Source of the DNA: an uncultured Acidimicrobiales bacterium
GTDB lineage: Bacteria > Actinomycetota > Acidimicrobiia > Acidimicrobiales > SZUA-35
DNA length: 64,000 nucleotides
Assembly (NCBI GenBank): GCA_937922045.1
Contig: CAKZXA010000032.1
Coordinates: forward strand, 133,710-197,709
Direction: 5' to 3'
Shown: one piece after another, positions 60,005 to 63,797 of the stretch
How the letters are laid out: every line of letters begins with the position of its first letter
Position numbering within the stretch: position 1 is the first letter of the stretch
Made by a program: the position numbers and the translations under genes
The notes under the pieces: model-generated
What the model saw: the letters and a program-made list of their open reading frames with translations, nothing else
Databases searched by the model: none
What the model was told of the DNA's origin: nothing

Positions 60005-61618
60005 TCAGGCGACTTCGACGTCGATCGTGTGCCAGCCAGTGGCGCCGTCGGGCGCTGGCGAGGCGAGATCGGGTGTCTGGCTGTAGCCGGATTCGTCGGT
60101 AGCTCGCACTCGCAGCGTGTGGTTGCCCGGTTCGGCATCCCAGGCGTAGAGCCACTGAACCCAGGCGTCGGCCCCGAGGCTTTCACCTAGCTGGGCTTGC
60201 TGCCACTCGCCATCATCGATCTGGACCTCGACCTTGGCGATACCGGTGTTGGGCGCCCAGGCGACGCCGGCGATAGCTGTCGTTCCCTGGCCAACACGAG
60301 ACCGATTGGATGGCGTGTCGATGCGGGATTGGGTCTTGACCGGCCCTACCTTCGACCAGCCGCGAGGGATCCAGTAGCCGTCGAAGTCTTCCCAGGTCGT
60401 GAGCTCGATCGTCTCGATCCATTTTGTGGCCGACACGTAGCCGTAGAGGCCACTGACAACGAGACGGGCTGGGAAGCCGTGAGCTACCGGGAGAGGCTCG
60501 TCGTTCATAGCCACCGCTAGCAGGGCGGTTCGCCCGTCATAGGCGGCTTCAGTGGGAAAGCCGCAGGTCCAACCGTCGACCGAGCTGCTGGCGATCTGGG
60601 TTGCTCCGGGTTGGACGCCAGCCTCATCGAGCAGCTCGCTCAGAGGGACCCCTCGCCAGATTGCGTTGCCTACGAGCTGGCCGCCTACCTCATTTGAAAC
60701 GCAGCTCAGGGTCACGGGGGCCACCGTCGACGCTCGATCGAGAAGCTCTTGGTAGGTGTAGGTGACCTCTTGATCGACCATTCCCTTGATCGTAAGCGTC
60801 CATGTGTCGGGGTTTACCTGAGGCTTGATGAGGGCGGTATCGATCAGGTAGAAGTCATCGCCGGGAACCACAAGCGGACTGATGCCAGGGGTTGAACCGA
60901 CATCGCTGGCCGTGGCGGCGTCGAGTACCTGGTCGAAAGCGGTGGAGGAGTCGACCGGCTCGAGCTGGACCGCATCGCGAGCGATGTCGACCGATGATCG
61001 TGATCGGATTGCCTGAGCGGCAGCACCAGCCGAGGCCGCGCCAAGTCCCGCCACACCAGCCCAGCCGAGAAAGCTGCGTCGAGAGACGTGGGGATTGGTC
61101 GGCGTGCCAAAGGGCGGTGTCTTGGCCGGCGTCGATCTTGGCCGGGCTCGATTCAGGAGGAAACTCAGCGTGAGCATGCCGCTAGCGGCGGCGATAGCAC
61201 TGCTGATGATGGCCCACAGCAATGAGCCCTGCGGGTCACTCGCTATAGCTAACAATCCCAGAATGGCGAAGCCGGCGAAGCCCAACAGGGCTGGGACAAC
61301 GCTCCGGCGAGCCACCACGCCCAGGGCCATAGCAAGGGCAACCGAGATGCAAATCGTTCCAATGATTAGGGCTGGCTTGTCGGCTAGGCCAAAGAGTGAC
61401 TTGCCGAGTTCGACAAACCAGCCAGGTGCGAGATCGATTACTCGGTTGGCGACGGCGACGACCGGACCCGGCGAAGGAGCGCCGAAGGCTCCAACAAATT
61501 CCCCGGACGCCAGCGCTAGGCCAGCTGCGAGCGCGCCAGCCAGGGCGGCGATCCATGTGCGAATGCCCTCGGTTTTGTCAATCGTCTTATCCAACGAGGC
61601 GCCTAGCTGTTCTCCCAT
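60005..61618 (-). CDS. Membrane-anchored sulfite-oxidase-like molybdopterin enzyme, Tat-exported
   Basis: The protein of 537 residues starts with about five membrane helices (residues 20-165), followed by a twin-arginine signal (SRRSFLGWAG), so the C-terminal part is moved outside by Tat. That part has DDFYLIDTALIKPQVNPDTW, the Mo-ligating Cys in LSCVSNEVGG, RGVPLSELLDEAGVQPG and HGFPARLVV, then an immunoglobulin-like dimer domain with WAPNTGIAKVEVQID. It is a sulfite-oxidase/YedY-related oxidoreductase. The electron acceptor is unknown. The moeA-moaA-moaC genes could supply its cofactor. It is divergent from the redoxin gene. Confidence 0.85.
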   Translation of the reverse strand: MGEQLGASLDKTIDKTEGIRTWIAALAGALAAGLALASGEFVGAFGAPSPGPVVAVANRVIDLAPGWFVELGKSLFGLADKPALIIGTICISVALAMALGVVARRSVVPALLGFAGFAILGLLAIASDPQGSLLWAIISSAIAAASGMLTLSFLLNRARPRSTPAKTPPFGTPTNPHVSRRSFLGWAGVAGLGAASAGAAAQAIRSRSSVDIARDAVQLEPVDSSTAFDQVLDAATASDVGSTPGISPLVVPGDDFYLIDTALIKPQVNPDTWTLTIKGMVDQEVTYTYQELLDRASTVAPVTLSCVSNEVGGQLVGNAIWRGVPLSELLDEAGVQPGATQIASSSVDGWTCGFPTEAAYDGRTALLAVAMNDEPLPVAHGFPARLVVSGLYGYVSATKWIETIELTTWEDFDGYWIPRGWSKVGPVKTQSRIDTPSNRSRVGQGTTAIAGVAWAPNTGIAKVEVQIDDGEWQQAQLGESLGADAWVQWLYAWDAEPGNHTLRVRATDESGYSQTPDLASPAPDGATGWHTIDVEVA

Positions 61619-61776
61619 ACACTCAGCGAACCATAGAAATGAGGGTGACATTCCAATCGGGTGTTCAAACCGAAGAAGGTTTCGCGAACGTTTCGGATCC
61701 GTTTATGGTGCATTTCGACCCGGCAGGGGATGCTAGAGATGCCGTCTACGTCGGCCCTCGAACCTTTGGAGCGCGT

Positions 61777-62598
61777 ATGCCTCATGAAGCCACACAGCGA
61801 CTACCCAGAAAGCGATCACAGAGCGGCAGCTCGCTCTGGTCGCTGGCGGTAGCAACCGGCCTCGCCTTGGTCTTGGCCGCCTGCGGCGGCACGACCACCG
61901 ACGAAAGCGCTGATGAATCGACCGCGGCCTCGGTGTCGGCTGCGACGGATGAATCGGCGGTCACCCCTGCCGATGAAACCCCGACGGCATCGAGTGACAC
62001 CACCGTCGCCGACGCAGCTTCGACCGCCCCAACAACGGCTCTGACCGCAACGTCGTCGGACTCCACGACGTCGTCGACAGCAGAAACCTCCGACTCTTCA
62101 GCGACTACCGCATCGTCGGAGAGCACGGCGTCATCGGAGGCGACGACCACACCGTCGACCGAGGCACCAACCACCACCAGTACCGAGACAGCGGTCAATC
62201 TGTTCCCCGATGTCGATGTGGTAAGCATCGTCGATGGTTCGAATGTCAATCTCGCCTCGAGACTCGGCGGAGGGCAAACTCCTGTCCTGCTCTGGTTCTT
62301 CGCCCCGCATTGACCTACCTGCAACGCCGAAGCACCGGCGGTTGAGCAGTTTGCTCAACAGAACACAGGCAAAGTGCGAGTTGTTGGCATGGGCGCTCAG
62401 GACAGCTTGGACCTGGCGAAGTCCTTCGTCCAACGCAACGGGACCGATACTCCGACGATGGTGTGGGATGCGTCCTTCGATTCGTGGAGCCACTACGGCG
62501 TTTCCGGCCAACCGTTCGTGATTCTTGTCGATGCCGAAGGCAACGAGTTGGGTCGCTGGTCGGGCCTCTCATCGGAGATCAGCGAACTGATCGGCTAA
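61777..62598 (+). CDS. Thioredoxin-like lipoprotein with in-frame TGA, probable selenoprotein (UxxC)
   Basis: A lipoprotein signal ending in LVLAAC (Cys36) follows ATG 61777, which has GGAG 5 nt upstream. A Ser/Thr/Ala/Glu linker runs to about residue 145. A thioredoxin-like domain follows: PVLLWFFAPH, then TGA at 62311-62313 (codon 179), then PTCNAEAPAVEQF. After this the frame stays open for 95 codons, with VRVVGMGAQDSLDL, the cis-Pro motif SGQPFVILVDAEG and a final LGRWSGL, and ends at TAA 62598. The TGA replaces the first Cys of the redox motif while the second (Cys182) is intact. The base after TGA is C, a weak stop context. Selenocysteine is the best reading; a nonsense mutation is the alternative. 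It may act as an extracytoplasmic reductase. Confidence 0.82.
62325..62359 (+). promoter_or_regulatory. Candidate bacterial SECIS: two adjacent hairpins after the TGA codon
   Basis: Hairpin 1: CGCCG (62325-62329) and CGGCG (62336-62340), loop AAGCAC, starting 11 nt after the TGA, the same distance as in E. coli fdhF. Hairpin 2: GTTGAGCA (62341-62348) and TGCTCAAC (62352-62359), loop GTT with G first, 35 nt after the TGA. Bacterial SECIS loops carry a G near the loop start, which favours hairpin 2, while spacing favours hairpin 1. Both lie in the coding region, as in bacteria. Confidence 0.55.
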
Positions 62599-62644
62599 AC
62601 CCTCCCGGTGGCAGGGATGTTCGCGGTCGGCTAGACCGGAGGGC

Positions 62645-63454
62645 ATGTCCGAACAACGAGAGTCAGATCAAGGATCACGCCTCAAGGCTGAGCCGAGTAC
62701 CGTCGTCAACCTTGCCGATCGCGTGGTATTGGTTACGGGTGGCAATGGTGGCATCGGGCTCGGCCTAGCGGAGGGCTGTGCGGCCGTGGGCGCCGACATC
62801 GTGATCTGGGGGACCAACGAGACCAAGCTGGCGGCAGCCGAGACCCGGCTCAAAGCGATGGGGGCCAAGGTCCTGGCCTCGCGCGTCGATGTGTCTGACG
62901 AGGAAGCCGTCATCGCTGGTATGGACGAGGTCATGGCGACGATGGGCCGCATCGACGCGGCCTTTGCCAACGCAGGAGTGAGTGGGTCCGCTCCCTTTCT
63001 CGACCAGACCACCGAGCTCTGGCGTCGCACGCTCGCCGTCAATCTCGATGGAGCGTTCTACACGCTTCGAGAGGCGGCTAGAAAGATGGTCGAGGGTGGT
63101 GGCGGTTCGCTCGTCGGCGTCTCTTCGGTGTCAGCCATCCATGGGGCGCCGCGTAGCCAGCCGTATGCCGCCAGTAAGGCTGCCCTGCTGGCCATCATGC
63201 GAGGGCTAGCCGTCGAGCTGGCGCCCCAAGGAATCAGGTGCAACTCGATCGTGCCAGGCTGGACCGAGACGGAGCTGACCGAGCCGAGCCGAGAGAACGA
63301 GAAGTTTGTGGCCAACACCACCTACCGAACGCCGATCCGCCGTTGGGGTCTCCCCGAGGACTACCGAGCCCTCGGTGCATTCCTAGCCGACCCGACCCTC
63401 GTCTATCACACGGGCGACGAGATCGTGATGGATGGTGGGTATACCCGCTTCTGA
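62645..63454 (+). CDS. Short-chain dehydrogenase/reductase
   Basis: A classical SDR of 269 residues with TGGNGGIGLGLAEG, NAGVSG, Ser in GVSSVSA, Tyr-x-x-x-Lys in YAASKAAL and GDEIVMDGG at the end. The first 25 residues are a polar extension. The substrate is unknown; it is 46 nt downstream of the redoxin and may share its transcript. ATG 62645 is preceded by GGAGG. Confidence 0.88.
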   Translation: MSEQRESDQGSRLKAEPSTVVNLADRVVLVTGGNGGIGLGLAEGCAAVGADIVIWGTNETKLAAAETRLKAMGAKVLASRVDVSDEEAVIAGMDEVMATMGRIDAAFANAGVSGSAPFLDQTTELWRRTLAVNLDGAFYTLREAARKMVEGGGGSLVGVSSVSAIHGAPRSQPYAASKAALLAIMRGLAVELAPQGIRCNSIVPGWTETELTEPSRENEKFVANTTYRTPIRRWGLPEDYRALGAFLADPTLVYHTGDEIVMDGGYTRF

Positions 63455-63602: not shown

Positions 63603-63797
63603 ATGAAGGTGAACGTCGATTTCGACCTTTGCGAGAGCAATGCGGTCTGTATGGCCGTGGCCCCCGAGACGTTTGAAGTGCGAGATGACGATTTCCTCTA
63701 CGTCTTAAACGAGAATCCCCCGGCTGAACATCACGAGAAGGTGAGAGAGGCAGCAGAACGTTGCCCGAAGCAAGCCATCACGCTGGAAGACGTTTGA
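63603..63797 (+). CDS. 3Fe-4S ferredoxin, P450-type
   Basis: A 64-residue ferredoxin. The first cluster segment reads CESNAVC and the last is RCPKQAI, the pattern of 3Fe-4S ferredoxins that serve cytochromes P450 in Actinobacteria. The middle position that carries the fourth Cys in 4Fe-4S proteins is occupied by Asn or Ala. AAAGGA precedes ATG 63603. The stop overlaps the start of the reductase gene by 4 nt, so both are translated together. Confidence 0.9.
   Translation: MKVNVDFDLCESNAVCMAVAPETFEVRDDDFLYVLNENPPAEHHEKVREAAERCPKQAITLEDV

Follow-up and report, generated by a model that had tools for sequence, protein, structure and literature searches.

A predicted selenocysteine-containing redoxin lipoprotein with a conserved in-frame UGA in an uncultured Acidimicrobiales bacterium

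The locus and its gene product

The window, i.e. the whole 64,000-nt stretch of DNA that was analysed, carries a lipoprotein gene that starts with the ATG at 61777, just downstream of a GGAG ribosome-binding site, and ends with the TAA at 62596-62598 (Table 1). In between, the frame is open except for a single TGA at residue 179, and the coordinates given for both in the original prediction are exact. Read as selenocysteine (Sec), the TGA yields a product of 273 residues, 94 of which follow the TGA before the stop codon is reached; the 95 further codons counted earlier are correct only if the stop is included. Scans for promoters and terminators over positions 61500-62700 found nothing.

The encoded protein is predicted to be exported as a lipoprotein and to consist of three parts. 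Its signal peptide ends in the lipobox VLAAC with Cys36 (TGC 61882-61884) as the predicted lipidated residue, and a lipobox-like motif is present in 35 of the 39 copies checked. A stalk follows, which in relatives of the Sec redoxin is rich either in Ser/Thr or in Asp/Glu, and the C-terminal part is a predicted thioredoxin fold. The active site reads WFFAPHUPTCNAEAP, a pattern (WFFAPH-U-PTC) that is invariant in relatives, so that the TGA occupies the place of the first Cys of a CxxC motif. The second Cys is retained as Cys182, and the SGQP motif supplies Pro246, which we take to be the cis-Pro facing the active site. Hence, the lipoprotein signal, the Ser/Thr linker, the thioredoxin fold and the position of the TGA within it were all recovered as originally proposed.

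Table 1. Features of the Sec redoxin locus, in window coordinates
Feature	Position	Strand	Basis
Sulfite-oxidase-fold molybdoenzyme (PF00174), membrane-anchored, divergent neighbour	60005..61651	-	Pfam, 142.7 bits
Predicted Sec-containing redoxin lipoprotein, coding sequence	61777..62598	+	sequence; Pfam Redoxin above cut-off
Predicted signal peptide, ending at lipobox LAAC (VLAAC)	61777..61884	+	sequence
Low-complexity stalk, Ser/Thr-rich	61885..62193	+	sequence
Predicted TlpA/DsbF-like thioredoxin domain, unbroken across the TGA	62194..62595	+	AlphaFold2 model, PDB match
UGA codon, predicted Sec179, residue 1 of the UxxC active site	62311..62313	+	codon comparison among copies
Cys182, second UxxC residue	62320..62322	+	invariant column
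Predicted SECIS hairpin GUUGAGCA-GUU-UGCUCAAC	62341..62359	+	conserved pairing, compensatory changes
Presumed cis-Pro codon, Pro246, GQP motif (SGQP)	62512..62514	+	nearly invariant column
Short-chain dehydrogenase (SDR), downstream neighbour, often conserved	62645..63454	+	profile match, synteny
Small ferredoxin-like protein, downstream neighbour, often conserved	63603..63797	+	sequence, synteny

Fold and family assignment

The domain matches the Pfam Redoxin family (PF08534) over residues 143-256, a span that includes the TGA (42.1 bits; cut-off, 26.6), and it also exceeds the cut-offs of Pfam Thioredoxin_8, AhpC-TSA and Thioredoxin. A PF08534 match above the gathering score, combined with Sec in place of the first CxxC residue (UPTC), places the protein among the UxxC selenoproteins of the Redoxin family. 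In the AlphaFold2 model of the domain (mean pLDDT 95.3, pTM 0.90) the fold runs continuously through the TGA position, with the UxxC motif at a helix start and the cis-Pro opposite, as in TlpA/DsbE-like proteins. The top structural match in the PDB is DsbF of Mycobacterium tuberculosis (3ios, TM 0.82), with Mpt53/DsbE (1lu4) at TM 0.80; by sequence, too, these two are the nearest solved structures (E values of 3e-15 and 8e-12, respectively), and ResA and CcmG come next. The DsbE model TIGR00385 scored 39.8 bits, below its curated cut-off of 123.15.

Exchange of Cys for Sec in redoxins, which the original prediction presented as known, is indeed catalogued: UxxC redoxins of PF08534 appear among the predicted prokaryotic selenoproteins (PMC13188914 Table 1), and the selenoprotein 'Prx-like 3' was described as pfam08534 with UxxC (PMC2398784). 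The 'Redoxin family protein' of the former catalogue shares with the window protein the best Pfam hit, the UxxC motif and Sec in place of the first CxxC Cys, while neither text describes a lipid anchor, a stalk or a molybdoenzyme pairing, the PMC13188914 entry being compared by its description only. The DsbG-like UxxC family NF041057 (Rcas_1661 family) likewise comprises thioredoxin-like lipoproteins in which Sec can stand at the first active-site Cys, but the window protein is not a member (20.4 bits against a curated cut-off of 190). DsbF and Mpt53 represent the same actinobacterial extracytoplasmic TlpA-like oxidoreductase type that is predicted for the window protein, though they carry Cys in their active sites (APWCPTC and TPWCPFC, respectively) where the latter has Sec (APH-U-PTC). 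With TlpA, ResA and CcmG (DsbE) it has the fold and the position of the CxxC motif in common.

Matches above cut-off to both Redoxin and AhpC-TSA would also suit a Sec-decoded peroxidase of the peroxiredoxin type rather than a disulfide oxidoreductase. This reading is nevertheless rather unlikely, as the peroxidatic motif PxxxTxxC/U is absent from the active site and the nearest structures are DsbF, Mpt53, ResA and CcmG. Instead, it is very probable that the gene encodes a lipid-anchored, extracytoplasmic TlpA/DsbE/DsbF-like Sec thiol-disulfide oxidoreductase, the UGA of which is decoded by means of SelB and a hairpin.

Conservation of the in-frame UGA

Among the distinct copies from relatives and paralogues, codon 179 is TGA in 44 of 46 and TGC in the other two (L085 and L086). 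The loci from named genomes have TGA in 31 of 39 cases and TGC or TGT in eight (L112, L115, L116, L121, L123, L126, L127 and L129), and the homologues with Cys in this column, the presence of which had been proposed as a check, are the more distant ones. Copies with TGA span at least three dozen species-level genomes, and independent assemblies from many studies agree on the codon. A tree of 40 sequences requires about four changes between Sec and Cys, at least three of them forced by well-supported branches, as expected of residues that are interchangeable at one catalytic position. Moreover, among the matches listed from a search of 119 genomes, selA was present in 58 of the 58 genomes with a TGA copy as opposed to one of the 15 with TGA-free matches alone (Fisher p = 4e-14).

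Two cases among the Cys forms deserve separate mention. L112, from a Sporichthya-labelled MAG, comprises two Cys-form copies (APHCTFC and APHCPFC) on one contig. The Microthrixaceae genome G056 (L085/L126) contains selA yet has a Cys redoxin; it would seem that Sec has been replaced here, or was never acquired, in spite of the machinery being there.

Beyond the TGA the sequence continues to evolve as a protein. In codons 16-50 after the TGA, pN/pS is 0.47 in frame, the two alternative frames giving 1.04 and 1.43, which, at the level of sequence comparison, indicates purifying selection in the gene's own frame only. The in-frame UGA is hence conserved in orthologues with coding continuing past it, a feature by which selenoproteins are recognised. 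This conservation also bears on the view that a truncated lipoprotein of 178 residues is the functional product and read-through incidental: termination normally competes with Sec insertion, but the short form would lack over half of the domain, including Cys182 and the cis-Pro, and the region past the TGA is conserved, which renders this explanation very unlikely. Even less credence can be given to a pseudogene in which an ordinary CxxC lipoprotein was cut short by a chance nonsense mutation. The standard code does assign a stop to TGA, and Sec is missing from many bacteria; nevertheless, chance or decay is excluded because 44 distinct related copies possess the TGA and the sequence past it remains open and evolves as protein, while the genome harbours the Sec machinery. 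With the TGA conserved together with the downstream protein the pseudogene reading is already refuted, in line with the original argument that a random nonsense mutation was improbable, and close relatives are not truncated at this codon.

Selenocysteine machinery of the source genome

The source genome is a 4.9-Mb draft assembly with a completeness of 97%, the relatives of which in public collections are labelled Acidimicrobiales or Acidimicrobiia. All four of the components whose search had been recommended are present. The selB gene (253.5 bits, above cut-off) adjoins selA (400 bits) on a common strand of contig C103, selD was found with 359.9 bits, and a tRNA-Sec with the anticodon TCA scored 67.1 bits, above its gathering score. 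The selD gene features an in-frame TGA of its own at the active-site position (HGAGU; L011, contig C14), and the gene for the alpha subunit of a formate dehydrogenase has a TGA at the expected place (RTUHAP; L143, G000 C36:5689-7563); both products are therefore predicted to be Sec proteins as well. Positions 1-50 of the formate dehydrogenase model match elsewhere on the same contig (C36, 3025-3174). In addition, contigs C12 (L080), C50 (L081) and C4 (2632-3012; L159) each encode a further redoxin lipoprotein in which the first active-site codon is TGA, so that four Sec redoxins, including that of the window, were found in a sampling of the selenoproteome.

Alternative UGA codes exist in bacteria, and the TGA might accordingly be read as Trp or Gly, genome-wide or otherwise. 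However, TGA is an ordinary stop for the neighbouring SDR (at 63454) and ferredoxin-like (at 63797) genes, homologues have Cys rather than Trp or Gly in this column, and the genome encodes tRNA-Sec and SelB, which leaves such recoding exceedingly improbable. Decoding of the UGA as Sec is strongly supported by these sequence data.

A hairpin downstream of the UGA

A predicted SECIS hairpin of 8 bp with the loop GUU occupies positions 31-49 (the U of the UGA being position 1), its loop G lying at 62349 after a gap of 35 nt between UGA and loop. In the various copies the loop is GUU or AGUUU at a distance of 35 or 34 nt. The bacterial SECIS model comprises a stem of 4-16 bp, a loop of 3-9 nt with G in one of its first two positions, a distance of 16-37 nt from the UGA and an energy of at most -7.5 kcal/mol (PMC13188914); the window hairpin lies within these limits of geometry and energy, with -7.6 kcal/mol for the consensus hairpin and -19.9 kcal/mol for the 50 nt after the UGA in all.

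The structure is conserved among the copies. Its inner five pairs are nearly always kept in the 44 with TGA, and compensatory changes occur at pair 33-47 (CG to UA in 14 copies), at pair 35-45 (AU to CG in four copies, which turns the encoded Glu into Ala) and at pair 36-44 (GC to AU). In the hairpin alignment 83.8% of cells are paired, as against 27-41% with the partner slid, and changes on both sides affect 24 cells compared with 9.1 in shuffles, none of 500 shuffles being as high, although these controls remove relatedness and codon constraint in part only. In the hairpin codons pS drops to 0.36 versus 0.64-0.67 around them, and the Ala codons within the hairpin are GCT in 40 of 43 cases, the background in window genes being 25%. 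With a model derived from the alignment, three strong places were found in the source genome, all of them in Sec redoxin genes. No SECIS family matched in an Rfam search of the gene, which often happens with divergent SECIS elements of bacteria. A nearer hairpin, 14-29 nt past the UGA, folds well in the window sequence; it was not taken as the SECIS since neither its position nor its form is conserved.

A one-base assembly or sequencing error concealing TGC or TGT, conceivable in a draft of metagenome type, can be practically dismissed in view of the agreement between independent assemblies from many studies and of the hairpin, which is missing from the TGC and TGT copies.

The divergent molybdoenzyme and related lipoproteins

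The molybdoenzyme next to the Sec redoxin, already noted in the original prediction, has membrane segments and an internal twin-arginine motif (SRRSFL). It adjoins the Sec redoxin in divergent orientation in 22 of the 24 orthologous loci whose flanks are sufficiently long, and the two exceptions (L064 and L069) keep the other neighbours. Beside redoxins outside the orthologous group it was looked for and is absent, so that the pairing marks a clade and not the whole family. The original prediction set the novelty too high, as UxxC redoxins and thioredoxin-like selenolipoproteins had already been catalogued (PMC13188914, NF041057). A functional tie between the Sec redoxin and the molybdoenzyme is plausible as a hypothesis drawn from synteny. 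Some 1.7 kb away from the source genome's paralogue on contig C12 (L080), another PF00174 protein is encoded, which is fused to cytochrome b561 and contains the motif CVEGWS (L080:2682-4286).

Related lipoproteins whose active site has two in-frame TGA codons, WFWAPW-U-PF-U-RAEAP (UxxU; L135-L142 and L151-L158), were observed within the family and the order, in no fewer than 14 genomes. The UxxU site possibly constitutes a diselenide centre; UxxU has been noted for Prx-like thiol:disulfide oxidoreductases (PMC13188914). In the literature searched, which was covered in part and included PMC5029168, no earlier description was found of this Acidimicrobiia group of lipoproteins, of its molybdoenzyme pairing or of its UxxU sisters. 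Within that partial coverage, the family-wide conservation in Acidimicrobiia, the divergent molybdoenzyme pairing and the double-Sec UxxU sister lipoproteins thus seem to be undescribed.

Proposed mechanism and implications

In the proposed mechanism, SelB with Sec-tRNA(Sec) would recognise the hairpin and thereby direct selenocysteine to the UGA. The protein would then be exported as a lipoprotein, with the lipid at Cys36 and the flexible stalk tethering it to the membrane's outer face. By analogy with TlpA/DsbE-type oxidoreductases, Sec179 is inferred to attack target disulfides (or oxidised thiols), while Cys182 would resolve the mixed selenide-sulfide. The usual electron source of TlpA, ResA and CcmG oxidoreductases is DsbD/CcdA. 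Neither this source nor VKOR, the partner to be compared in the case of DsbF and Mpt53, was found when sought in the source genome, and the redox cycle of the Sec redoxin is therefore incomplete.

With four Sec redoxins in this genome, and with DsbD/CcdA and VKOR undetected, one may ask how its extracytoplasmic thiols stay redox-active. It is conceivable, though doubtful, that the Sec redoxin and the divergent molybdoenzyme form a dedicated envelope redox pair, e.g. for Sec-driven repair of thiols or of methionine sulfoxide/sulfur, in one lineage of Acidimicrobiia that also uses UxxU lipoproteins, which would amount to a selenium-based extracytoplasmic network independent of DsbD/CcdA or VKOR. 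Automatic annotation normally ends such genes at the UGA, and the envelope selenoproteins of a large uncultured group of actinobacteria have hence likely been missed. Since the form of the SECIS is strict and searchable (GAGC-AGUU-N-GCUC at a fixed distance), cataloguing them is possible.
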